From Streptomyces sp. NBC_01276 (GTDB taxonomy: Bacteria > Actinomycetota > Actinomycetes > Streptomycetales > Streptomycetaceae), in NCBI RefSeq assembly GCF_041435355.1, contig NZ_CP108442.1, positions 6,942,501 to 7,006,500 of the forward strand: a stretch of DNA of 64,000 nucleotides, in the 5' to 3' direction. Positions 6,405 to 16,830 of the stretch are shown here, one piece after another (the first letter of the stretch is position 1; the number at the start of each line of letters is the position of its first letter). The position numbers and the translations under genes are program-made. The notes beneath the pieces were generated by a model. The model made no database searches, was not told the origin of the DNA, and saw only the letters and a list, made by a program, of their open reading frames with translations.

Positions 6405-6899
6405 TCAGGGTTTGCGGACCGCTCGCCCCGCCGCTTCCCGGCCCACGGACTCGACCAGCGGCAGCAGTCGGTGGGCCACCCGCTCGCGCAGGGCCACCTC
6501 GGTACGGGTGCGGACCACCCCCGGCAGCCGGATCAGCTGCTGGATCACGTCCTCCAGATGGGCGTTGTCCCGGGCCGCCACACGGGTCAGCAGGTCCCCG
6601 CCGCCGGTGATCGAGAAGGCCTCGATGATCTCCGGGACGGCGGCGAGCGCGTCGCCGACCTCGTCCAGGTCCCCCTGGGTGACCTCGATGTGCACGAAGG
6701 CCAGGACGGGGTGGCCCAGTGCGGCGGGCGAGAGGGCGGGGCCGGTTCCGGTGATCACCCCGGTCCGCTCCAGCCGGTCCAGCCGGGCCTGGAGGGTGCC
6801 GCGGGCCACGCCGAGGATCCGGGCGTACTCGCGGACGCTGGTGCGCGGCTGCTCGATCAGCAGGCGCAGGATCAGGGTGTCGAGTTCGTCCACCGCCAT
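6405..6899 (-). CDS. Lrp/AsnC-family transcriptional regulator
   Basis: A 164-residue protein with N-terminal helix-turn-helix (LDTLILRLLIEQPRTSVREYARILGVARGTLQARLDRLERTGVI) and a C-terminal RAM ligand/oligomerisation domain (AFVHIEVTQGD to SITGGGDLLTRVAARDNAHLEDVIQQLIRLPGVVRTRT). The family forms octamers and usually senses amino acids. It lies between the HAD gene and the DUF1295 gene, all leftward; the 26-nt gap to the DUF1295 stop codon means it could be read from the fatty-acid operon or from its own promoter. Confidence 0.9.
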   Translation of the reverse strand: MAVDELDTLILRLLIEQPRTSVREYARILGVARGTLQARLDRLERTGVITGTGPALSPAALGHPVLAFVHIEVTQGDLDEVGDALAAVPEIIEAFSITGGGDLLTRVAARDNAHLEDVIQQLIRLPGVVRTRTEVALRERVAHRLLPLVESVGREAAGRAVRKP

Positions 6900-6925
6900 G
6901 CCAGGACTGTACCAATGGCCCGGGA

Positions 6926-7828
6926 TCACCCCTTTCCGGCGCGACCGGGACCCCGGATGTCGCCCCGCTTCGGCGGCCACGGCAGGAACCCGCTGGTCCG
7001 GGCCCGGTACGCGGCGTAGCCCGGCCGGTCTGCCATGTGCCGCTCCAGCAGCCGCTTCCCGCTTCCCGCGATCAGCAGGTACGACATCACCAGCGGGGAC
7101 ACGACGGACACCGCGGCCGCCTGCGCCGACCCGCACGCGATCAGGAAGAGCCCCCACCAGACGCAGAAGTCGCCGAAGTAGTTCGGATGCCGGGTCCACG
7201 ACCACAGCCCCCGGTCCATGATCCTGCCCCGGTTCGTGGGATCCGCGGTGAACCGGGCCAGCTGGTGGTCGCCCACCGCCTCGAAGACGATCCCGCAGAG
7301 CCACAGCAGGCTCCCCGCCACCGCGAGCCCGACCGGGCCACCCGGACCGCCGGCCCCACCCGGGCCACCGGTCCCACCCGGACCGCCGTACCCGCCCGGA
7401 CCGCCGGCCCCGCCCCACCCGTGGTCCACGTACGCACCCGCCTGCACCGGCAGCGACACCAGCCACACCAGCGCCGCCTGAAGCAGGTACACCATCCGCA
7501 GCGCGTACAGGTTCCGGCTCCCCGGGGCCCGCGCCAGCATCCGCTCGTACCGGGGGTCCTCCCCGCGCCCCCGTCCCCGCCACGCGATGTGCCCGGCCAG
7601 CCGCAGCCCCCACACCACCGTGAGCACGGTCAGCAGCAGTCCGCGCCCGCCGCCCCCGCCCGACATCCCGTACGTGGCCACCGCGACGGCGGCGAAGCCC
7701 AGGCCCCACGCCACGTCCACCACCCGGTGGGTGCCCCTGCGCACCCCCACCGCGAACGCGAGCAGCATGACGCCCACGGCCGCGCCGGCCGCCACGGCCA
7801 GGTTGACCCCGAAGGGACCCCAGTTCAC
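6926..7828 (-). CDS. DUF1295 membrane protein (steroid 5-alpha-reductase-like fold)
   Basis: A 300-residue polytopic membrane protein. The family signature is near the C-terminus: WSWTRHPNYFGDFCVWWGLFLIACG followed by KRLLERHMADRPGYAAYRARTSGFLPWPP. DUF1295 proteins resemble steroid reductases and isoprenylcysteine methyltransferases and are thought to act on lipids. A glycine-rich insert of about 30 residues sits in a loop before the membrane segment VGLAVAGSLLWLCGIVFEAVG. The start is GTG 7828, overlapping the stop codon of the upstream methyltransferase by 4 nt (GTGA), so it is the last gene of a tightly coupled operon of amine oxidase-like, DUF1365 and methyltransferase genes. A role in membrane fatty acid or lipid reduction is inferred. 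Confidence 0.85.
   Translation of the reverse strand: MNWGPFGVNLAVAAGAAVGVMLLAFAVGVRRGTHRVVDVAWGLGFAAVAVATYGMSGGGGGRGLLLTVLTVVWGLRLAGHIAWRGRGRGEDPRYERMLARAPGSRNLYALRMVYLLQAALVWLVSLPVQAGAYVDHGWGGAGGPGGYGGPGGTGGPGGAGGPGGPVGLAVAGSLLWLCGIVFEAVGDHQLARFTADPTNRGRIMDRGLWSWTRHPNYFGDFCVWWGLFLIACGSAQAAAVSVVSPLVMSYLLIAGSGKRLLERHMADRPGYAAYRARTSGFLPWPPKRGDIRGPGRAGKG
7331..7420 (-). repeat. Gly-Gly-X repeat region inside the DUF1295 gene
   Basis: Low-complexity DNA reading about nine successive GG-x triplets (GGP, GGY, GGT, GGA variants) in the protein. It is in frame and lies in a predicted loop between membrane helices. It looks like a repeat expansion and is likely to vary in length between relatives. 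Confidence 0.7.
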
Positions 7829-9042
7829 CGTCCGCCGCCTTCTCCGCCGGTGAGCAGGAACTGGTGCACGTCCAGGTACCCGGAGGCGAACCCGGCCTCG
7901 CAGTAGGCGAGGTAGAAGGTCCACATCCGCCGGAACCGCTCGTCGAAGCCGAGCTCCGCCACCCGCTCGGACCGCTCCGCGAACCGTTCCCGCCACAGCC
8001 GCAGGGTCTGCGCGTAGTGGGCCCCGTAGCCCTCGCACCGTACGACCCGCAGCCCGGTGTGCGCCCGCGCCATCTCCTCCACCGCCCGCACCGAGGGCAG
8101 CATCCCGCCGGGGAAGATGTACTTCTGGATCCAGGTGTACGTGTCCTTCGTGGCCAGCATCCGTTCGTGCGGCATGGTGATCGCCTGGAGGGCCACCCGT
8201 CCGCCCGGCTCCAGCAGCCGGTCCAGCGCGCGGAAGTACGCCGGCCAGTACTCGACGCCGACCGCCTCGATCATCTCCACACTGACGATCGCGTCGTACC
8301 AGCCGTGCGCGTCCCGGTAGTCGCACAGCCGCACCTCCACCCGGTCCGCCACACCCGCCGCCGCGATCCGCCGCAGCGCCAGCTCGCGCTGCTCCCGCGA
8401 GAGCGTCAGGGTCACCACGCGGGCACCGCGCCGGGCCGCCCGGACCGCGAGTTCGCCCCAGCCCGTGCCGATCTCCAGCAGCCGGGTGTCCGGGCCCACC
8501 CCGGCCAGGTCCAGCAGCATGTCGATCTTCCGGTGCTGGGCGGCGGGGAGTTCGGCCTCCGTGGCGGGCAGGGCGCGGAACACCGCCGAGGAGTACGTCA
8601 TCGTCGGGTCGAGGAACTGGGCGAACAGTTCGTTGGACAGGTCGTAGTGCCACTCGACGTTGGTACGGGAACCGGTCCGGGTGTTGCGCCGCTCCACCGG
8701 CTGCCGGGCCGCCCACAGCCCCCGCAGCCGCTGGAGCGGAGCCGGGACCAGCGCGGAGACGTGCCCGGCCAGGACGGTCAGCACCGCCACCGGGTCGCGG
8801 GCGTCCCACTCCCCGGCGACGTACGACTCGCCGAACCCGATCAGTCCCTCCGCGGTGATCCGGCGCTCGAAGGCGGCCGGGTCGTGGACCGCCATCGCCG
8901 GCCCGCCCCGCCCCAGGAGGCCCTCGGGTCCCATGTTCACCTGGAGCGGGAGCCGGTCCAGCGCCCGGCGGATGATCAGCCGGCCCACCGCCGCCCTCGT
9001 CCGGGAACAGGGCGGCACGTCCGGAAGCGTCGTCAGCGTCAC
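7825..9042 (-). CDS. Cyclopropane-fatty-acid-synthase-like SAM methyltransferase
   Basis: The 405-residue protein has the CFA synthase architecture: an N-terminal lipid-binding region (GFGESYVAGEWDARDPVAVL), the motif HYDLSNELFAQFLDPTMTYSSAVF, the SAM site LLEIGTGWGELAVRAA and the catalytic region VSVEMIEAVG. These enzymes transfer a methyl group from SAM to the double bond of acyl chains in membrane phospholipids. With an FAD amine-oxidase-like partner two genes upstream, it resembles the methyltransferase of furan fatty acid synthesis in Rhodobacter (UfaM, from memory) as much as a true cyclopropane synthase. GTG 9042 overlaps the DUF1365 stop codon by 4 nt. Confidence 0.88.
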   Translation of the reverse strand: MTLTTLPDVPPCSRTRAAVGRLIIRRALDRLPLQVNMGPEGLLGRGGPAMAVHDPAAFERRITAEGLIGFGESYVAGEWDARDPVAVLTVLAGHVSALVPAPLQRLRGLWAARQPVERRNTRTGSRTNVEWHYDLSNELFAQFLDPTMTYSSAVFRALPATEAELPAAQHRKIDMLLDLAGVGPDTRLLEIGTGWGELAVRAARRGARVVTLTLSREQRELALRRIAAAGVADRVEVRLCDYRDAHGWYDAIVSVEMIEAVGVEYWPAYFRALDRLLEPGGRVALQAITMPHERMLATKDTYTWIQKYIFPGGMLPSVRAVEEMARAHTGLRVVRCEGYGAHYAQTLRLWRERFAERSERVAELGFDERFRRMWTFYLAYCEAGFASGYLDVHQFLLTGGEGGGR

Positions 9043-9800
9043 TTCACACCCTCCTGGGGCACGTGGCGGGGCCGCGGCAGCACGGGCAGCCCGCGCAGCC
9101 GCAGCCGGACGCCGTGGAAACGGATGCCCACCGCCACCGCGGCCGTGGGCCAGGGGCGGCGCACCAGGGCGCGCAGCAGGCCGCGCGCACCCGCGCGGCG
9201 GCGCCGGCCGCGCACGGTCGCCGTCAGCCGGGCGCCGTCGGCCCCGCCCGCCAGCCGGACCGTCAGGTCGAGGCGTTCGCCCGGCTCGGGCAGCCGCATC
9301 CGGTAGTCCCCGTCCACCTCCAGGAAGGGGGAGACGTGGAACTCCTTGGGGACGCGGGCCTCCCGGGAGGCCTCCGGGCCGAGGAGGTAGCAGTGCCGCT
9401 CCCCGTACGTGTTGTGCACCTCGGCGACGATCTGCCGCAGCGCCCCGTCCGGGCCGTGGCACCAGTACACCGAGAGCGGGTTGAAGACGTACCCGAACAC
9501 CCGGGCGTGCGCCAGCATCAGCACCCTCGACCCCGGCGGCAGAGCGGCCCCGCGCGCCGCGAGGAAGCCGTCCAGGCCGGCCCGGATCGAGGGGAGGCCG
9601 CCGCCGAAGTGGTCCCGCGCGTCGAACCGGGCCAGCGCCCGCAGCGGCGGGGGCAGCACGGGCAGCGCGTCCAGGTCCACGAGCCACAGGAAGGTGCGGT
9701 GGCGCAGGGCGTAGCGGTGCCCGCCGGTGCGCACGTGCCGGACGTCGGCCTCGTACAGCGCGCCGCCCGCCGCCCGGGGCCCGCCCGGCCCGCCCCTCAC
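9039..9800 (-). CDS. DUF1365 protein
   Basis: A 253-residue soluble protein with DUF1365 hallmarks: HRTFLWLVDLDALP near the N-terminus, ARVFGYVFNPLSVYWCHG, AEVHNTYGERHCYLL and KEFHVSPFLEV. The biochemical role of the family is not established; it is repeatedly found between FAD amine-oxidase-like and cyclopropane-synthase-like genes. That arrangement holds here, with 4-nt GTGA overlaps on both sides (start GTG 9800). A part in transferring or modifying acyl chains is inferred from context only. Confidence 0.88.
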   Translation of the reverse strand: MRGGPGGPRAAGGALYEADVRHVRTGGHRYALRHRTFLWLVDLDALPVLPPPLRALARFDARDHFGGGLPSIRAGLDGFLAARGAALPPGSRVLMLAHARVFGYVFNPLSVYWCHGPDGALRQIVAEVHNTYGERHCYLLGPEASREARVPKEFHVSPFLEVDGDYRMRLPEPGERLDLTVRLAGGADGARLTATVRGRRRRAGARGLLRALVRRPWPTAAVAVGIRFHGVRLRLRGLPVLPRPRHVPQEGVK

Positions 9801-11086
9801 CAGTCCACCCCCAGCGCGGCGGCCGCCGCCACGCCAGAACGGCAGCCGTCCTCGTGGAAGCCCCAGCCGTGGTAGGCCCCCGCGTAGGCCGTCACCGGCC
9901 CCGACAGCTCGGGCAGCCGCCGCTGCGCCGCCACCGAGTCCGGCGTGTACAGCGGGTGTTCGTAGTCCATCTCCGCCACCACCCGGTCCGGCCGCACCCG
10001 CCCGGTCCCGGCGTTCAGGGTGACCACGTACGGTTCCGGAGCCGCCAGCCCCTGGAGCCGGTCCATGTCGTAGCTGACCTGCACCGGCACCTCTTCGGCC
10101 GGCCGGCATCCGGACAGCCGGTAGTTCCAGCAGCCCCGCGCCCCCGCGGCACCCGGCAGCACGGAGCCGTCGGTGTGCAGCACCGTGCGGTTGCGGGAGT
10201 AGCGGAAGGCCCCGAGCACCGCCAGCTCGGCGTCGGTGGGGTCGGCCAGCATGCGCAGCGCCTGGTCGGCGTGGACGGCGACCACCACCGAGTCGTACGC
10301 GGCCGACGCCCCGTCGGCGGTGGTGAGCCAGACCCCGCCCGGGGTGCGGGCCAGGGACCGCACCCGGACGCCGGAACGGACCGCGCCCGGACCCAGCGCC
10401 TCGCGGACCCGCTCCACGTACCGCGCCGAACCGCCCTCGACCGTACGCCAGCTCGGGGAGCCGCCGACCGACAGCATGCCGTGGTGGGAGAGGAACCGGA
10501 ACAGGTAGCGGGCCGGATGCGCGAGCGCCCCGCCCGGCGGGCAGGACCACACCGAGGCCACCAGCGGTATCGCGAAGTGCCCGGTGAAGTACGGTCCGAA
10601 GCCGCCCCGCTCCAGGAACTCGCCCAGCGTCGGCTCCGGTCCGGCCCCGGGCGGCGTGGCCAGCAGCCGCCGGGCCCGCCGGTGGAAGACCGGCACCTGG
10701 GCGAGCATCCGCAGGTAGGCGGGCCGCAGCGCGCTCCCGGGCCGGGCGAACAGCCCCCTCGGCCCGCGCGCCCCCGCGTACTCCAGCCCGCAGCCCTCGC
10801 AGTGCACCGACAGGCTCATGGTCGTGGGACGGGTGGCCACTCCCAGCTCACCGAAGAGCCGCAGCAGGTGCGGGTAGGTGCGGTCGTTGTGGACGATGAA
10901 ACCGGAATCGACACCCCGGACCAGGCCGTCGGGGCCCTTCACCGGATGGGTGTGGGCGTGCCCGCCCAGCCGGTCGTCGGCCTCGTACAGGGTCACCGCA
11001 TGGCTCCTGGCCAGCACGTACGCCGCCGTCAGCCCGGACACGCCCCCGCCGATCACGGCCGTGCGCGGTCGTCCTCGCTCGGTCAT
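9797..11086 (-). CDS. FAD-dependent amine-oxidase-like desaturase (COG2907 type)
   Basis: A 429-residue flavoprotein with an N-terminal FAD motif AVIGGGVSGLTAAYVLA (residues 10-26) and the DDRLGGHAHTHPV segment typical of the COG2907 group, then VDSGFIVHNDRTYPHL. The C-terminus (TPDSVAAQRRLPELSGPVTAYAGAYHGWGFHEDGCRSG) closes the FAD site. Relatives include carotenoid and phytoene desaturase-like oxidases. In Rhodobacter sphaeroides, as I recall, such a protein (UfaD) and a CFA-like methyltransferase convert 18:1 acyl chains to methylated diene precursors of furan fatty acids. It is the first gene of the leftward operon; ATG 11086 is preceded by GAAGGAGGG. Confidence 0.85.
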   Translation of the reverse strand: MTERGRPRTAVIGGGVSGLTAAYVLARSHAVTLYEADDRLGGHAHTHPVKGPDGLVRGVDSGFIVHNDRTYPHLLRLFGELGVATRPTTMSLSVHCEGCGLEYAGARGPRGLFARPGSALRPAYLRMLAQVPVFHRRARRLLATPPGAGPEPTLGEFLERGGFGPYFTGHFAIPLVASVWSCPPGGALAHPARYLFRFLSHHGMLSVGGSPSWRTVEGGSARYVERVREALGPGAVRSGVRVRSLARTPGGVWLTTADGASAAYDSVVVAVHADQALRMLADPTDAELAVLGAFRYSRNRTVLHTDGSVLPGAAGARGCWNYRLSGCRPAEEVPVQVSYDMDRLQGLAAPEPYVVTLNAGTGRVRPDRVVAEMDYEHPLYTPDSVAAQRRLPELSGPVTAYAGAYHGWGFHEDGCRSGVAAAAALGVDW

Positions 11087-11212
11087 CTCGCTCCCTCCTT
11101 CACGCTCACTTCGGAGCCGGAGGGGGTGTCGGATGTGTCGTGGGGCGAAACCGTACGGAGGAAGGCAGGCTGGGTCCCGTACACGCCGCCCCCGGTGCGC
11201 CGGAGCGTCACC

Positions 11213-11233
11213 GACGCCTCACCGTGAGGCGTC
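11213..11233. promoter_or_regulatory. Perfect palindrome in the divergent promoter region
   Basis: Arms GACGCCTCAC and GTGAGGCGTC flank one central C, giving a 21-nt perfect inverted repeat. It lies near the middle of the 277-nt region between the divergent operons starting at 11086 and 11364, where a shared operator is expected. The LitR-like regulator or another dimeric factor could bind; the binder is not known. Confidence 0.5.
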
Positions 11234-11363
11234 ACCGTCCGGGAGGGCCGCGCCGGGTCCGGCCCCGCCGCATCCGAAAGCGCCGCTCCACCCGAATTCC
11301 CTACGGGCCCGTGAGGGGCCCGGGGGCGGCCGACGGCGGGGGAACGACGAGCGGAGACAGCCC

Positions 11364-13034
11364 ATGACAGGCGCGCACTGCCTGGTCACCGGGGCCACCG
11401 GATACATCGGAGGCCGCCTGGTGCCCGAACTCCTCGACTCCGGACACCGCGTCCGCTGCCTGGCCCGCTCCCCGGAGCGGCTGCGCGACCACCCCTGGGC
11501 CGGCCGCGCCGAGGTGGTGCGCGGGGACGTCACCGACCCCGCGTCGCTGGCGGCGGCCCTGCGCGGCATCGACGTCGCCTACTACCTCGTCCACGCCCTC
11601 GGCACCGGCCACGGCTTCGAGGACCGCGACCGCGCCGCCGCCCGGACCTTCGCCGAAGAGGCCCGCGCGGCCGGAGTCCGCCGGATCGTCTACCTCGGCG
11701 GCCTCGTTCCCGCGGACGTACCCCGCGACGCGCTCTCCCCGCACCTGCGCTCGCGCGCCGAGGTCGGTGAGATCCTCCTCGCCTCCGGGGTGCCCACCAC
11801 CGTCCTGCGCGCCGCCGTCATCATCGGCTCCGGCTCCGCCTCCTTCGAGATGCTGCGCTACCTCACCGAGCGGCTGCCCGTCATGGTCACCCCCAGCTGG
11901 GTCGGCACCCGCATCCAGCCCATCGCCGTCCGCGACGTCCTGCGCTACCTCGTCGGCAGCGCCGCCATGCCCCCCGAGGTCAGCCGGACCTTCGACATCG
12001 GCGGACCGGACGTGGTCACGTACGAGGAGATGATGCGCCGCTACGCCGTCGTGGCCGAGCTTCCCAAACGGCTCATCGTGCGCGTCCCCATGCTGACGCC
12101 GCGGCTCTCCAGCCACTGGATCGGTCTCGTCACGCCCGTCCCGCGCTCGCTCGCCCGGCCGCTCGCCGAATCCCTGCGCCACGAGGTGGTCTGCGACGAG
12201 CACGACATCGCCGCCTACGTCCCCGACCCGCCCGGCTCCCCGATCGGCTTCGACCAGGCCCTCGCACTGGCCCTCCAGCGGGTGCGCGAGGCCAAGGTCA
12301 CCACCCGCTGGTCCTCCGCCTCCCTGCCCGGCGCGCCCAGCGACCCGCTGCCCACCGACCCCGACTGGGCGGGCGGCAGCCTCTACACCGACGAGCGGGA
12401 ACTGCCCGTCGACGCCCCGCCGGACGCGCTGTGGCGGGTGGTGGAGGGCATCGGCGGGGAGAACGGCTGGTACTCCTTCCCCCTGGCCTGGGCCGTACGG
12501 GGCTGGCTGGACCGGCTCGTCGGAGGGGCCGGCATCCGGCGCGGCCGCCGCGACGCCGCCCGGCTCCGGGTGGGCGACTCCCTCGACTTCTGGCGGGTCG
12601 AGGAGATCGAAGCGGGCCGTCTGCTGCGGCTGCGCGCCGAGATGCGGCTGCCGGGGCTGGCCTGGCTGGAGCTGTACGCCGACCCGCGCGCGTCCGGCTC
12701 CGCCGCGGCCCCGGGCCCTTCCCCGGCCCCGGGCCCGTCCGCGGCCCCCGCCCCGCCGCGCGCCCTGTACCGGCAGCGGGCCCTGTTCCACCCGCACGGG
12801 CTGCTCGGACACCTGTACTGGTGGAGCGTCTCCCCCTTCCACGCCGTCGTCTTCGGCGGCATGGCCCGCAACATCGCCGGCGCCGCCGAACGGGCCGCGT
12901 CGGGATCCGGGCCCGCGCCGTCCCCCGCCCCCGGGCCCGCTTCACCCCCCGCAGCCGCATCCGGAACGGCCCCCCGCGCAGAAGAACCCCCGACAACCGA
13001 TGCCCACAGCCCTGACGCGGAGCCGAGAGCATGA
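11364..13034 (+). CDS. NAD(P)-binding epimerase with C-terminal DUF2867 (SRPBCC-like) domain
   Basis: A 556-residue two-domain protein. The first half is an atypical short-chain dehydrogenase/NmrA-like fold with VTGATGYIGGRLVPELLDSG at residues 6-25 and AYYLVHALGTG near 75. The second half (DERELPVDAPPDALWRVVEG to YWWSVSPFHAVVFGGMARNIA) matches the DUF2867 lipid-binding-like domain. A proline/alanine-rich low-complexity stretch interrupts the second domain and another forms the tail. The ATG at 11364 has GGAG about 8 nt upstream. It heads the rightward operon, overlapping the photolyase start by 4 nt (ATGA). Function is unproved; context suggests lipid or pigment modification. Confidence 0.83.
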   Translation: MTGAHCLVTGATGYIGGRLVPELLDSGHRVRCLARSPERLRDHPWAGRAEVVRGDVTDPASLAAALRGIDVAYYLVHALGTGHGFEDRDRAAARTFAEEARAAGVRRIVYLGGLVPADVPRDALSPHLRSRAEVGEILLASGVPTTVLRAAVIIGSGSASFEMLRYLTERLPVMVTPSWVGTRIQPIAVRDVLRYLVGSAAMPPEVSRTFDIGGPDVVTYEEMMRRYAVVAELPKRLIVRVPMLTPRLSSHWIGLVTPVPRSLARPLAESLRHEVVCDEHDIAAYVPDPPGSPIGFDQALALALQRVREAKVTTRWSSASLPGAPSDPLPTDPDWAGGSLYTDERELPVDAPPDALWRVVEGIGGENGWYSFPLAWAVRGWLDRLVGGAGIRRGRRDAARLRVGDSLDFWRVEEIEAGRLLRLRAEMRLPGLAWLELYADPRASGSAAAPGPSPAPGPSAAPAPPRALYRQRALFHPHGLLGHLYWWSVSPFHAVVFGGMARNIAGAAERAASGSGPAPSPAPGPASPPAAASGTAPRAEEPPTTDAHSPDAEPRA

Positions 13035-14416
13035 ACACCGCCGTGGTCCTGTACACCTCCGACCTGCGCCTGCACGACCATCCACCCCTGCGGGCCGCCC
13101 TCTCCTCCGGCGACCGGGTCGTCCCGCTCTTCGTCCGCGACCGCGTCATCGAGGACTCCGCCTTCGCCGCGCCCAACCGGCTGGCCTTCCTCGCCGACTG
13201 CCTCGCCGACCTCGACGCCGCCCTGCGCGAGCGCGGAGGCCGCCTCCTGCTGCGCTCCGGGGACGTCGTCGCCGAGGTCTGCGCCCTGGTCCAGGAAGCC
13301 GACGCCGACGAGGTGCACATGGCCGCCGGGGTCAGCGGCTACGCCCACGCCCGCGAGGAACGCCTGCGCGAGGCCCTCGAAGCCCAGGGCCGACGGCTCT
13401 ACGTCCACGACACCGTGGTCACCGCGGTGGCCCCGGGGACGGTGCTGCCGTCGGGCTCCCGAGCCGACCACTTCGCCGTCTTCACCCCGTACCTGCGCCG
13501 CTGGACGGAACTGCCCCTCAGGCCGGTCGAGCCCGCGCCCCGCACCGTACGGGTCCCCGAAGACCTGGGCTCCGAGCCGCTGCCCCGCCGCTCCGCCGTC
13601 ACCGGCACCTCCCCGGGCCTCGCCCGCGGCGGCGAGACCGAGGCCCGCCGGCTGCTGACCAACTGGCTCCGCTCGGGCATCACCCGGTACGAGGACACCC
13701 ACGACGACCTCGCCGGCGACGCCACTTCGAAGCTCTCCCCGCACCTGCACTTCGGCACCCTCTCGCCCACCGAGGCCGTCCACCGCGCCCGCGCCGCGGG
13801 CGGCCCCGGCGCCGAGGCCTTCGTCCGCCAGCTGTGCTGGCGCGACTTCCACCACCAGGTCCTCGCCGCCCGCCCCGACACCGCGAACGAGGACTACCGG
13901 GCCCGCCAGGACCGCTGGCGCACCGGACCCGACGCCGAGGAAGAGGTCCAGGCCTGGAAGGACGGCCGCACCGGCTACCCGGTCGTCGACGCCGCCATGC
14001 GCCAGCTGCGCCACGAGGGCTGGATGCACAACCGGGGCCGCCTGCTGGCCGCCAGCTTCCTCGCCAAGACCCTCTACGTGGACTGGCGCACCGGCGCCCG
14101 CCACTTCATGGACCTCCTCGTCGACGGGGACGTGGCCAACAACCAGCTCAACTGGCAGTGGGTGGCCGGCACCGGCACCGACGCCCGCCCCAACCGCGTC
14201 CTCAACCCCGTCCGCCAGGGCCTGCGCTACGACCCCGAGGGCCGCTACGTCCACCGCTGGGTGCCCGAACTCGCCGACCTGCCCGCGCCCCGCGTCCACG
14301 AGCCCTGGCGGCTGCCCGGCCTGGAACGGGCCCGCTTCGACTACCCGGACCCCGTCGTGGACCTCGCCGACGGCCTCGGCCGCTTCCGCGAGGGGCGGCC
14401 CGGCACCGTATCGTGA
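13031..14416 (+). CDS. phr: Class I CPD photolyase/cryptochrome family
   Basis: The 461-residue protein has an N-terminal antenna-binding domain (VVLYTSDLRLHDHPPL) and a C-terminal FAD domain with TSKLSPHLHFGTLSPTEAVHR, FVRQLCWRDFHHQVL, WKDGRTGYPVVDAAMRQLRHEGWMHNR and the block VANNQLNWQWVAGTGTDARP. These residues bind FAD and the pyrimidine dimer in DNA-repair photolyases, so light-driven repair of UV lesions is the likely activity. Its stop codon overlaps the LitR-like start by 4 nt and its own start overlaps the DUF2867 gene, so it is expected to be induced with them, by light. Confidence 0.92.
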   Translation: MNTAVVLYTSDLRLHDHPPLRAALSSGDRVVPLFVRDRVIEDSAFAAPNRLAFLADCLADLDAALRERGGRLLLRSGDVVAEVCALVQEADADEVHMAAGVSGYAHAREERLREALEAQGRRLYVHDTVVTAVAPGTVLPSGSRADHFAVFTPYLRRWTELPLRPVEPAPRTVRVPEDLGSEPLPRRSAVTGTSPGLARGGETEARRLLTNWLRSGITRYEDTHDDLAGDATSKLSPHLHFGTLSPTEAVHRARAAGGPGAEAFVRQLCWRDFHHQVLAARPDTANEDYRARQDRWRTGPDAEEEVQAWKDGRTGYPVVDAAMRQLRHEGWMHNRGRLLAASFLAKTLYVDWRTGARHFMDLLVDGDVANNQLNWQWVAGTGTDARPNRVLNPVRQGLRYDPEGRYVHRWVPELADLPAPRVHEPWRLPGLERARFDYPDPVVDLADGLGRFREGRPGTVS

Positions 14417-15459
14417 GCCGGGTGGACCCCGTGCCGGCCCCCGTGCCGCCGCCCCCCGAACCCGCCCTGAGCACGGGCGCCGTCGCCCGCCGCCTGGGGG
14501 TCTCGCCGACCACCCTGCGCTCCTGGGAACGCCGCTACGCCATCGGCCCGGCCCGCCGCGAGGACGGCCGGCACCGCCGCTGGACCCCCGAGGACATCGC
14601 CCGCCTCGACGAGATGTGCCGGCTCACCGCGCGGGGCGTGCCCCCGTCCGAGGCGGCGCGGGCCGCGCTCGGCGAAGCACCCGCCGCCCGCGCGGGGGAG
14701 GAGGCGGCGGCCGTGACGCCGGGCGGGCCCGGGGCCCTCCCCCTCGGGGAGGTGCGGCCGGAGGCCAGGGGGCTCGCGCGGGCCGCCGTACGCCTGGACG
14801 CGCCGGCGGTGGCGGACCTGCTGGAGGCCGCTGTCGCGGAACACGGCCCGGTCACCGCGTGGGAGGAGATCATCGCGCCGACCCTGCACGCCGTGGGCCG
14901 CAAATGGGCCTCGGCGGGGGAGCGGTACGTCGAGGTGGAGCACCTGCTGTCCTGGCACGTCTCCGCCGCCCTGCACCGGGTGCGTCCCGCCCCCGAGCGG
15001 GCGCACACACCCCCGGTGCTCCTCGCCTGCGCGCCCGGAGAGCTGCACAGCCTGCCGATCGAGGCACTGGCCGCCGCGCTCGGGGAACTGGGCGTGCCGG
15101 TACGGATGTTCGGCCCGGCCCTGCCCGCCGAGGCGCTGCGGGACGCGGTACGGCGTACCGGGCCCTGCGCGGCCGTGCTCTGGTCGCAGTCCCGTACGAC
15201 GGCGGACCGGACCCTGGCCCGTTCGGTGGCCGGCATCGCGTGGGGGCCGCCCGGGGCGCGGGGCCAGTCGGCGCTGCTGCTGGCCGGACCCGGCTGGGAC
15301 GGGCCGCATCCGCAGCCGCGCACCGAGCGGCTGTTCGGGCTGCGGTCGGGCGTCGCCGTCATCGCGGCGCTGGCAGCCGGGCCGGGACCGGGGCAGCGGG
15401 CCGGTCGGGGTCCAGCGCCTGCCGCAGGACGCGCAGCGCCCGCCGCATGTGGCTCTTGA
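14413..15459 (+). CDS. litR: LitR/CarH-type MerR regulator with B12-binding domain
   Basis: A 348-residue protein. The N-terminal MerR helix-turn-helix is STGAVARRLGVSPTTLRSWERRYAIGPARREDGRHRRW (about residues 18-58). After a linker, a helical cap contains Trp165 and Glu176-His177 in KWASAGERYVEVEHLLSWH, and a Rossmann-like cobalamin domain contains Glu210-x-His212 in CAPGELHSLPIEAL; His212 would be the lower axial ligand of cobalamin. LitR/CarH proteins bind DNA as oligomers in the dark with adenosylcobalamin and release it when light breaks the Co-C bond. Its GTG start overlaps the photolyase stop. The last 101 nt overlap the converging ECF sigma gene. Confidence 0.87.
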   Translation: MSRVDPVPAPVPPPPEPALSTGAVARRLGVSPTTLRSWERRYAIGPARREDGRHRRWTPEDIARLDEMCRLTARGVPPSEAARAALGEAPAARAGEEAAAVTPGGPGALPLGEVRPEARGLARAAVRLDAPAVADLLEAAVAEHGPVTAWEEIIAPTLHAVGRKWASAGERYVEVEHLLSWHVSAALHRVRPAPERAHTPPVLLACAPGELHSLPIEALAAALGELGVPVRMFGPALPAEALRDAVRRTGPCAAVLWSQSRTTADRTLARSVAGIAWGPPGARGQSALLLAGPGWDGPHPQPRTERLFGLRSGVAVIAALAAGPGPGQRAGRGPAPAAGRAAPAACGS

Positions 15460-15994
15460 CGGTGCCCAGCGGGAGCCCGGTGCGGGCGGCGATCTGGCTC
15501 TGGCTCAGGTCGGCGTAGAACGCCAGCCACAGCACGTGCCGCTGCGCCGACGGCAGCCGGGCCAGCTCCCCGGCCACCAGCAGCCGGTCCAGGGCCTGTT
15601 CCGGGCCGGGCCATCCGGCCGCGCCGTGCGTGCCGGGGTGCGGGCCGGGCGGGTGCGGCCCGTCGGCGAGGGCGACGGCGGCGGCCGCAACCGTACGGGC
15701 CCGCCGGGCACGGGCCTCCAGGGCGTCGGCCACCTTGTGCCGGGTGATCCCGGTGAGCCAGGCGCCGAGCCCGCCCGGACCGGGCCGGTAGCCGTCGCGG
15801 CCGCGCCAGGCTGCCAGGAACACCTGCTGGGTCACGTCCTCGGCCTCGCGGTCGTCGCCCAGGGAACGCCGGGCCAGGGAGTGCACCAGGGGCCGCCAGC
15901 GCCGGTAGACCGCCTCCACGGCGCCCTCGTCCCCCGCCGCGAACCCGGCGGAGAGGGCGGTGTCCCGTTCGATGGTGCGGGGAGGGTCGTCCAT
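15359..15994 (-). CDS. ECF RNA polymerase sigma factor, LitS-like by position
   Basis: A 211-residue ECF sigma factor. Sigma region 2 covers AAGDEGAVEAVYRRWRPLVHSLARRSLGDDREAEDVTQQVFLAAWR, and region 4 covers LARLPSAQRHVLWLAFYADLSQSQIAARTGLPLGTVKSHMRRALRVLRQAL. No anti-sigma gene is next to it. Light-induced carotenogenesis in Streptomyces coelicolor uses a LitR-LitS pair, so this factor is a good candidate to read the photolyase and fatty-acid operons; that is inference from position. ATG 15994 is used. The 3' end overlaps the LitR-like gene tail to tail. Confidence 0.88.
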   Translation of the reverse strand: MDDPPRTIERDTALSAGFAAGDEGAVEAVYRRWRPLVHSLARRSLGDDREAEDVTQQVFLAAWRGRDGYRPGPGGLGAWLTGITRHKVADALEARARRARTVAAAAVALADGPHPPGPHPGTHGAAGWPGPEQALDRLLVAGELARLPSAQRHVLWLAFYADLSQSQIAARTGLPLGTVKSHMRRALRVLRQALDPDRPAAPVPARLPAPR

Positions 15995-16018
15995 GCCACG
16001 AGCGTCGCCACCACCGGG

Positions 16019-16043
16019 GACGGAGGAAAGTTGCAGCGTTTTC
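16019..16043 (-). promoter_or_regulatory. Candidate ECF-type promoter for the sigma factor gene
   Basis: On the minus strand GAAAAC (16043-16038) is followed after 15 nt by CGTC (16022-16019), close to the GGAAC/CGTC pattern of ECF-dependent promoters, about 25 nt ahead of the sigma gene start at 15994. It would allow autoregulation. The match is short and could be chance. Confidence 0.35.
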
Positions 16044-16122
16044 GCAGCGAATGACGGCAGGGGCGCGAACGGGCCGCAGGGGCCGACGGTGCGCGCACGG
16101 CCGCAGGGGCGCGGTCGCCGGG

Positions 16123-16830
16123 CTACCGGGTGTGCAGCAGCGGCAACAAGGACCGGTGCACCACCGTCACCCCCGCCACCACCACCGCCGCCGGGAGCAG
16201 CACCTCGCCCACGCTCCATCCGGCCCGCACCAGCAGCGCCCCCGCCAGTCCGCCCGAGAACATGGCCAGTACCGCCAGTCCCCGCCGCGCCCAGGCCCCG
16301 CTCCCGTATCCGAAGGCACTGTCGCGCCCCAGCGCCGAGCCGGCCATCAGGCCGGTCATGGACCGGGTCACCAGCGTGGTCGGCACACCGGGCACGTTCA
16401 CCCGCATGCTCGTCACGTTCCGGATGCCCATGGCCACCGACAGCAGCCCGGCCTCCACCAGGTGCGGCGCCCCCGGATCGCCGAACCGCGGGGTCACCCG
16501 CCACCCGGCGACGGCCGCGGCGACGATCAGCGCCGTCTCGGCGTACAGCCCCAGGCACATCCAGCGCCAGCCCCGGCCCTCCGCGGCCGACTCCATCCGC
16601 GCCCCGCACACCGCGCCCAGCGCGAAGGCCACCAGAGAGACGGCCGCCGGCAGCGAGGGCAGGTTCCCCTGATGGGCCGCCCCGAAGGCCAGAAAGAGGA
16701 CGTTGCCGGTCTGCATCGCCGTGAACACCGGTCCCAGGGCGAGCAGGCTCACCGCCTCGATCAGTCCGGTGACCGCGGTCAGAGCGAGCATGAGCGCCGT
16801 CAGGGAGGGCCGCAGCGCCCGCGCGTCCAC
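16123..16830 (-). CDS. DUF1275 (YoaK-like) membrane protein
   Basis: A 235-residue protein with six or seven hydrophobic segments. The family motif is near the N-terminus: AVTGLIEAVSLLALGPVFTAMQTGNVLFLAFG; IRNVTSMRVNVPGVPTTLVTRSMTGLMA follows in the second half. DUF1275 proteins are inner-membrane proteins, probably transporters, of unknown substrate. GTG 16830 is used, with GAGGG immediately upstream. The gene reads toward the ECF sigma gene and is separated from it by 128 nt containing two copies of CGGCCGCAGGGGC-like sequence. Confidence 0.82.
   Translation of the reverse strand: MDARALRPSLTALMLALTAVTGLIEAVSLLALGPVFTAMQTGNVLFLAFGAAHQGNLPSLPAAVSLVAFALGAVCGARMESAAEGRGWRWMCLGLYAETALIVAAAVAGWRVTPRFGDPGAPHLVEAGLLSVAMGIRNVTSMRVNVPGVPTTLVTRSMTGLMAGSALGRDSAFGYGSGAWARRGLAVLAMFSGGLAGALLVRAGWSVGEVLLPAAVVVAGVTVVHRSLLPLLHTR

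Follow-up and report, generated by a model that had tools for sequence, protein, structure and literature searches.

The window analysed here, a stretch of 64 kb (64,000 nucleotides, nt) from Streptomyces sp. NBC_01276, carries at positions 6926-15994 a block of genes that is probably a light-switched regulon for membrane-lipid modification and DNA repair, in which the synthesis of a furan fatty acid would be controlled by LitR, a MerR-type regulator with B12-binding domains, via LitS, a σ factor of the extracytoplasmic function (ECF) type. This reading is carried by what the DNA displays directly, namely the identities of the genes, the operon structure, the clade membership and residue signature of the methyltransferase UfaM, the conservation of the block, its promoter and operator motifs and the absence of the carotenoid (crt) gene crtI, and by what would be expected from relatives as regards the furan-pathway chemistry in the source strain, LitR as a light sensor binding adenosyl-B12 and the promoter specificity of LitS. 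An earlier note on this DNA, which proposed that modified fatty acids are made here on demand of light, is partly confirmed in its observation and partly supported in its interpretation. The arrangement of the genes is more than chance, because the four genes of the furan-fatty-acid (ufa) operon, all leftward, are found together in 38/42 fetched Streptomyces loci (window not counted) and the triad UfaD-UfaO-CFA (cyclopropane-fatty-acid-synthase-like protein) in the same order in 36/40 fetched actinobacterial loci outside the genus. The elements of the block are the following (aa, amino acids; bp, base pairs):

9797-11086, minus strand: ufaD-like gene for a predicted acyl desaturase resembling flavin-adenine-dinucleotide (FAD) amine oxidases; 429 aa; Pfam Amino_oxidase, 93 bits.
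9039-9800, minus strand: ufaO-like gene for a DUF1365 protein; 253 aa; GTG start; 4-nt overlap with ufaD; DUF1365, 224 bits.
7825-9042, minus strand: ufaM-like gene for a (CFA-like) acyl methyltransferase dependent on S-adenosylmethionine; 405 aa; 4-nt overlap with ufaO; Pfam name CMAS.
6926-7828, minus strand: gene for a DUF1295 (steroid-reductase-like) protein; 300 aa; 4-nt overlap; DUF1295, 228 bits, Steroid_dh weak.
11087-11363, no strand: divergent promoter region between both operons; a 277-bp spacer with both matches of CATCCR-N12-16-CCGAA in the 64 kb.
11110-11135, minus strand: predicted LitS-type promoter reading into ufa; the ufaD ATG follows after 49 nt; kept in L067, L073 and L075 (see below).
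11271-11296, plus strand: predicted LitS-type promoter for the rightward operon (DUF2867-photolyase-litR), whose ATG follows after 93 nt.
11364-13034, plus strand: gene for an NmrA/epimerase-like protein with a C-terminal DUF2867; 556 aa; DUF2867, 143 bits, NAD_binding_10, 83 bits.
13031-14416, plus strand: DNA photolyase gene (phr); 461 aa; FAD_binding_7, 244 bits, DNA_photolyase, 134 bits.
14413-15459, plus strand: litR, for a MerR-type regulator with B12-binding domains (LitR/CarH-like); 348 aa; Pfam MerR_1 and B12-binding_2, with B12-binding below cut-off.
15359-15994, minus strand: gene for a LitS-like ECF σ factor; 211 aa; Sigma70_r2 and Sigma70_r4; convergent with litR.
16032-16050, plus strand: candidate LitR operator, an 11-bp direct repeat TGCAGCG-N4-CGCAGCG; some 40 nt upstream of the litS ATG.

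The block comprises eight genes, five of them leftward, as the earlier note had counted, and three rightward instead of the four given there; the gene families that it named are all present by family matches and coordinates, and the 4-nt overlaps to which it drew attention are found at 5/5 within-operon junctions.

The identity of the leftward operon can be judged from the characterized proteobacterial pathway. According to the available part of PMC7380195, the furan fatty acid of Rhodobacter sphaeroides requires UfaM, UfaD (RSP1091) and UfaO (RSP1090), the last of which contains a DUF1365, and the genes RPA2571, RPA2570 and RPA2569 of Rhodopseudomonas palustris (ufaD, ufaO and ufaM) are enough for furan formation when moved into R. 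sphaeroides. The order ufaD-ufaO-ufaM of the window is that of R. palustris, as given by the locus numbers, with a DUF1295 gene added. On this sequence evidence the leftward operon is a furan-fatty-acid gene set, with the DUF1365 protein as its predicted UfaO-type, oxygen-inserting enzyme. The earlier note, in ascribing the furan to a UfaD/UfaM pair, left without a role the DUF1365 protein, the UfaO that is needed as well. The comparator for sequence identities was Cereibacter johrii, a near relative (its ChrR is 96% identical) of R. sphaeroides, which was not among the 80 loci kept: the UfaD-like protein of the window shares 40% identity (271 bits, full length) with the C. johrii UfaD encoded beside rpoE-chrR, and the UfaO-like protein 35% with C. 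johrii UfaO, the nearest named relatives of the window's DUF1365 protein being Streptomyces proteins. The predicted model of UfaO is beta-rich and confident (pLDDT 91.5), and no clear structural relative was found for it when such relatives, including the heme-binding calycin, nitrobindin-like fold, were looked for. A second methyltransferase of the Rhodobacter operon, RSP1089, was also considered and set aside, the C. johrii equivalent by place being a major facilitator superfamily transporter. The genome of the source strain holds three desaturase-family genes that could supply the double bond for a furan pathway. Outside the genus, the actinobacterium Agrococcus has yielded a furan fatty acid, the ufa genes not being named in the available text (PMC9323897), and in Chlamydomonas the induction of CFA1, CFA2 and a DUF1365 gene by singlet oxygen depends on SAK1, as far as the available part of PMC4067076 describes it. 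As a separate observation, the nearest PDB chain to the UfaD-like protein (9797-11086) is LkcE (3e-40), the amine oxidase of lankacidin synthesis; being the closest solved structure, it suggests that LkcE may derive from a lipid-desaturase family of the UfaD type.

The operon is widespread. In a genus sample of 121 surveyed Streptomyces genomes (source strain included), DUF1365 is present in 41, and the four loci that lack the complete leftward set are two cut by contig ends (L049 and L074), one on a short contig that holds just UfaD and UfaO (L076) and a degenerate copy (L077). Across the phylum, DUF1365 is found in 52/396 genomes and 33/236 genera; the 40 loci examined outside the genus were drawn from 46 genomes with a DUF1365 match. 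The search for the same gene order in other actinobacteria, suggested in the earlier note, thereby gave a positive answer, and the possibility also raised there, that the genes adjoin in no other strain, fails because of the wide presence of the operon within Streptomyces and beyond. The triad is even found in 6/8 fetched plasmid regions (Azospirillum, Rhizobium tropici, Azoarcus, Rhodococcus, Streptomyces and Klebsiella), five of these six having a σ/cupin, a σ/ChrR or a MerR-type regulator in the stretch.

The methyltransferase can be placed by its identities, its clade and its residues. The C. johrii genome has a single full-length CMAS match (294 bits; the next above the cut-off is partial, with 34 bits), and it was taken as UfaM by elimination, being the only one of full length; a photolyase gene adjoins it, and phrA and ufaM are adjacent in R. 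sphaeroides too. The window protein is 45% identical to this UfaM, whereas its identity with E. coli Cfa is 33%. A tree was built from 50 proteins, a subsample of the 95 gathered, with long branches flagged among the rows outside the UfaM clade; in it, 35 rows form a UfaM clade with support 100/100 that includes the window protein and C. johrii UfaM, together with the CFAs of ufa loci from Streptomyces (first paralogue), Rhodococcus, Rhodobacterales, Azospirillum, Rhizobium, Azoarcus, Klebsiella and Cupriavidus (in the last case encoded near, but not within, the ufaD-ufaO operon). Outside it stand E. coli Cfa, three cyclopropane-type enzymes from the PDB, the second CMAS of the genome itself, the second CFA paralogue of Streptomyces loci and two CFAs linked to DUF1295. 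The same division is seen at positions 139, 240 and 266 of E. coli Cfa, occupied by C, H and H in E. coli Cfa, 5z9o, 7qos and CmaA1, and by S, A and Q in the window protein and C. johrii UfaM. Among the 42 first-paralogue actinobacterial rows, 31 have SAQ, 10 AAQ and one an A at 139 with gaps at the other two positions; among the 16 rows of Rhodobacterales type, the figures are 15 SAQ and one AAQ. As C139 and H266 presumably hold the catalytic bicarbonate in cyclopropane synthases, the loss of this base site would go with a methyl branch and a shifted double bond instead of a ring. The identity of 7825-9042 as a canonical cyclopropane synthase was dropped because of both the residue signature (C139, H240 and H266 are replaced) and the tree, so the protein called CFA-like in the earlier note is better described as UfaM-like. 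The three-residue signature separates furan-pathway methyltransferases from cyclopropane synthases, for both of which plasmid records use one name. On the side of chemistry, Halomonas UfaM produced in E. coli yields 11-methyloctadec-12-enoate, with cyclic acids also present in that strain, according to the part of PMC12089945 available. Many ufa operons contain, in addition, a second CFA paralogue before DUF1295 (L037, L044, L051 and other Streptomyces loci), whose signature is a mixed one, CHQ (C139, H240, Q266), in 23/23 rows.

Could the same enzymes make another product? The pathway might end with a methylated chain bearing one or two double bonds, or the DUF1295 protein, perhaps a reductase of the modified chain, might reduce it to a methyl-branched one, with no furan being formed. 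DUF1295 indeed accompanies the triad in 38/42 Streptomyces loci, yet the C. johrii locus (L089) gave no DUF1295 match. Cyclopropane-type residues are retained in both of the DUF1295-linked CFAs examined (from R. tropici and Cupriavidus), so DUF1295 may belong to another branch. Nonetheless, the formation of furan is the sole UfaO activity that the available part of PMC7380195 reports, and for it the R. palustris trio, arranged as here by locus number, is sufficient. We regard a product other than a furan as unlikely, though worth keeping in mind.

The second half of the argument concerns the regulators. LitR matches CarH (5c8d, 6e-17) and retains, like 24 other Streptomyces rows, the equivalents of the B12-binding residues W131, E141, H142 and H177 of Thermus CarH; the genome also encodes a cobalamin adenosyltransferase. 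The σ factor of the window is 54-58% identical to those encoded beside LitR at the crt loci L181, L182, L183 and L185, and is of the LitS type as judged by these crt-locus σ factors of the genus, not by S. coelicolor LitS itself. No ChrR-type anti-σ factor is found among the ten proteins of 6405-16830, which places the block outside the RpoE-ChrR systems. LitR is present in 62/121 genomes of the genus, and 17 of the 41 genomes that bear DUF1365 encode it no more than about 16 kb from that gene; ufa and LitR are associated over the 121 genomes, LitR accompanying ufa in 33/41 and being present in 29/80 of the others (p = 3.5e-6). The architecture of the window recurs in three genomes (L067, L073 and L075), the flanking Lrp and DUF1275 genes not being seen in L075, and the DUF2867 gene adjoins the photolyase and LitR genes in other Streptomyces loci too. 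The two regulator genes are divergent in 13 of the 20 fetched loci holding both; in the window they overlap tail to tail by 101 nt (15359-15459), and a convergent litR/litS overlap of 68-77 nt is found in the four nearest relatives (L067, L073, L075 and L184), an antisense coupling of both genes being possible.

The promoter and operator DNA supports, as a prediction, a chain from LitR to LitS and from LitS to the operon. The pattern CATCCR-N12-16-CCGAA has two matches in the 64 kb, with 0.32 expected and two reached in 4/100 shuffles, and both copies fall in the 277-bp divergent spacer, one for each operon direction. In L067, L073 and L075 the motif of the rightward operon was not seen before the DUF2867 gene and is found before phr instead. 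In a broader form, [AC]ATCC...CGAA[TG], the pattern precedes ufaD in 28/43 loci (background 0.022 per stretch): loci with a LitS-like σ factor account for 6 of these (from 14), all of the CATCC form, and those without it for 22 (from 29), of which 17 are of the AATCC form. With a slightly different pattern, the CATCC form is found before ufaD in 8/15 LitS-linked loci (window included) versus 3/29 others. Before phr, [AC]ATCC...CGAA[TG] is present in 11/15 loci with a LitS-like σ factor versus 0/6 without. This is the promoter type of the carotenoid genes as well, since CATCCG-N13-16-C[CG]GAA lies before crtE in 4/5 crt loci (background 40 per 1.6 million strand-bases), at distances of 112 (L183), 166 (L182) and 235 nt (L181) from the first aligned codon and, in L180, 32 nt before an open frame whose start was probably set too early. 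As for the operator, Thermus CarH binds 11-bp direct repeats, and the candidate motif TGCGNAANCGNTGCAA is exactly kept before litS in L067, L073 and L075 and varied in L184. All 13 divergent litR-litS spacers contain GCRWCG-N5-GCRWCG (background 27 per 1.6 million strand-bases); the window copy, with GCAGCG, falls outside this stricter form. The available parts of PMC12705666 and PMC5401885 state for S. coelicolor that litS is under LitR control and derepressed by light, and that the crtE promoter is read by LitS. The LitR and ECF σ factor named in the earlier note are borne out, the latter as a LitS-type one, and the motifs fit the cascade.

If LitS is known for pigment genes, what has become of the pigment? 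The source assembly (9.4 Mb) has no crtI match over the TIGR02734 cut-off, nor do the L067, L073 and L075 genomes, while 57/121 genomes of the genus have one. The SQS_PSY family of phytoene and squalene synthases, the only other crt-related genes searched, has three matches outside the window: two adjacent ones at 1.17 Mb, which we take to be hopanoid genes, and one at 0.59 Mb, around which a carotenoid cluster was sought and rejected, the listed open frames, read by eye and with no family scan, being transport, signalling and unrelated genes. The strain probably cannot make carotenoids, and the absence of carotenoid genes that the earlier note had claimed from the window extends, for crtI, to the whole genome. 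Within the set of 62 LitR genomes, those with LitR near ufa carry crtI in 6/17 cases and the others in 34/45 (p = 0.006, not corrected for kinship). Two genomes were observed in which the neighbourhood is different. In G034 (L180), a photolyase-related gene, a polyprenyl synthetase and crtI come after the epimerase-photolyase-LitR block, in place of the ufa operon; in G077, the same block is kept, crtI lies on another contig, and a C-terminal remnant of ufaD (from residue 378; L184:14223-14378) stands between the epimerase and Lrp genes, the rest of the operon being gone. Both look like swaps around one regulatory block. The further suggestion of the earlier note, that lipid replaces pigment, finds a basis in these LitR genomes and in the lack of crtI here, and none over the genus as a whole (see below); a furan lipid would possibly stand here in place of a carotenoid.

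A number of observations weigh against a light-controlled furan pathway. The equivalent of H132, the cobalt ligand of the light state in Thermus CarH, is not present in any of the 25 Streptomyces LitR rows examined (window included), and LitR was for that reason not filed as a Thermus-type CarH. Streptomyces lipids are mostly saturated branched chains, so unsaturated chains to act upon may be in short supply. Genome-wide, the strict promoter pattern shows no enrichment, with 5 matches in 9.37 Mb (two of them in the spacer) versus 4 for a reversed control; as a means of finding the regulon it is uninformative, and it draws its weight from location and conservation. Beyond the spacer there are three sites, one of them 76 nt upstream of an open frame resembling a cation antiporter and the other two not closely followed by any open frame. 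No promoter match was found in 15/43 ufaD upstream stretches, among them 8 of the 14 LitS-linked ones, nor before crtE at the crt locus L185, and the five crt loci contain six further matches of the crtE pattern elsewhere. Over the 121 genomes, ufa and crtI are unassociated (20/41 vs 37/80, p = 0.85). Finally, a different ECF σ factor, with 28-32% identity to that of the window, is found in 26/42 Streptomyces ufa loci, and this, together with LitR being near in just 17/41 genomes, indicates that the operon does not need LitR.

This last point leads to the reading in which the operon is real and is not under LitR or light, the σ factor and LitR serving the photolyase and themselves and the ufa genes answering singlet oxygen or envelope stress via the other ECF σ factor. 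The latter is present in 19/27 Streptomyces ufa loci without LitR (e.g., L051:13466-14080), the AATCC-type ufaD promoter, found in many of them, is that of 17/29 loci without a LitS-like σ factor, and Rhodobacterales, whose loci were fetched by ChrR, use RpoE-ChrR. Against it, the ufaD promoter at LitS-linked loci, where found, is of the CATCC type seen before crtE, and the promoters of the window form a matching pair, one directed at each operon. On balance, an operon independent of light is quite unlikely here. An ordinary cyclopropane-fatty-acid operon for membrane hardening, as the Pfam name CMAS would have it, is very improbable in view of the three replaced residues, of a clade with full support that excludes the canonical Cfa rows and of a separate second CMAS (L190) with canonical residues in the same genome. 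Hardly more credible is that light and lipid genes are chance neighbours without a functional link: the block stands beside polyprenyl synthetase and crtI in G034 and has outlasted most of ufa in G077, but the proximity of LitR and ufa recurs in 17/41 genomes, LitR-like matches (31-36% identity) are found in 3/40 actinobacterial loci outside the genus, MerR-type regulators adjoin the triad in Azoarcus and Klebsiella, the promoter type is shared, and light induction has been measured in Pseudomonas (PMC9758184, in its available part).

Under the preferred reading of a light-switched lipid and repair regulon, LitR with adenosyl-B12 would repress litS in the dark at the 11-bp direct-repeat operator. 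Light would break the LitR-B12 complex, litS would be made, and the RNA polymerase with LitS would read both divergent operons from the matched pair of ECF promoters in the spacer. Rightward transcription would provide the DUF2867 protein, photolyase and additional LitR. On the leftward side, UfaM would methylate an unsaturated phospholipid chain, shifting its double bond, UfaD would introduce a second double bond, and UfaO would insert oxygen derived from O2 to give a methyl-furan fatty acid, with the DUF1295 protein perhaps reducing or trimming a side product. Furan fatty acids guard cells against damage by light in other organisms, and the lipid of this strain, probably devoid of carotenoids, would scavenge singlet oxygen and radicals. 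A bolder proposal, which we put forward tentatively, is that in one Streptomyces lineage LitR-LitS has been re-aimed from pigment to membrane chemistry: a crtE-type promoter would now stand before a complete furan operon, crtI would have been lost or never been there, the furan lipid would be the main light-induced quencher, and the changes C139S, H240A and H266Q would turn a cyclopropane synthase into an enzyme that transfers a methyl group and shifts a double bond. In the open-access literature, among the matches listed, no title or abstract connects furan fatty acids to Streptomyces, or Streptomyces lipid genes to LitR. If the reading is true, light-controlled furan-lipid synthesis, known in proteobacteria, extends to Streptomyces and widely to actinobacteria, and lipid chemistry, rather than pigment, can be driven by a B12-based light switch, in a genus that is culturable and genetically tractable. 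Beyond the block, an Lrp/AsnC-type regulator gene (6405-6899) lies 26 nt past the leftward operon, with 91-94% identity in L067, L073 and L184, and no RNA families or tRNAs were found in the 64-kb window.

Several known systems share parts of this organization. The ufaD-ufaO-ufaM genes of R. sphaeroides and R. palustris have the same three enzyme families, the gene order of R. palustris and the UfaM clade and signature, and the photolyase that adjoins UfaM in C. johrii has its counterpart in the photolyase of the window block. The R. sphaeroides pathway, however, is part of the RpoE-ChrR regulon, whereas the control predicted in the window is by LitR and a LitS-type σ factor, with no ChrR among the ten proteins; moreover, DUF1295 is added, the host is an actinobacterium, and the pathway is known here from its genes alone. 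The blue-light response of Vibrio cholerae includes a light-induced CFA-type gene (VC1122) and phr under a MerR/ChrR pair, but the available part of PMC5241685 reads the CFA as cyclopropane synthesis and names ChrR and MerR, not LitS, as regulators. In Mycobacterium kansasii, the light-induced loci include crt and photolyase genes, with no cyclopropane or DUF1365 term in the available part of PMC9861118. The LitR-LitS-crt system of Streptomyces coelicolor has LitR and the ECF σ factor in common with the window, together with a promoter type shared with crtE at four of the five crt loci of the genus; unlike it, the predicted target in the window is lipid modification, there is no crtI over the cut-off, and litR and litS are convergent. 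A further parallel is the class II LitR region of Pseudomonas (pmlR1/pplR1, with phrB, an FAD oxidoreductase and ufaM), where a LitR-family regulator likewise stands beside photolyase and furan-lipid genes. Class II LitR acts there with a light-oxygen-voltage (LOV) photoreceptor, while the LitR of the window has B12-binding residues and an ECF σ partner. That region is induced by light: in Pseudomonas mendocina, ufaM rises 25-33 fold, phrB 27-33 fold and pmlR1 5.7-10 fold, according to the available part of PMC9758184.

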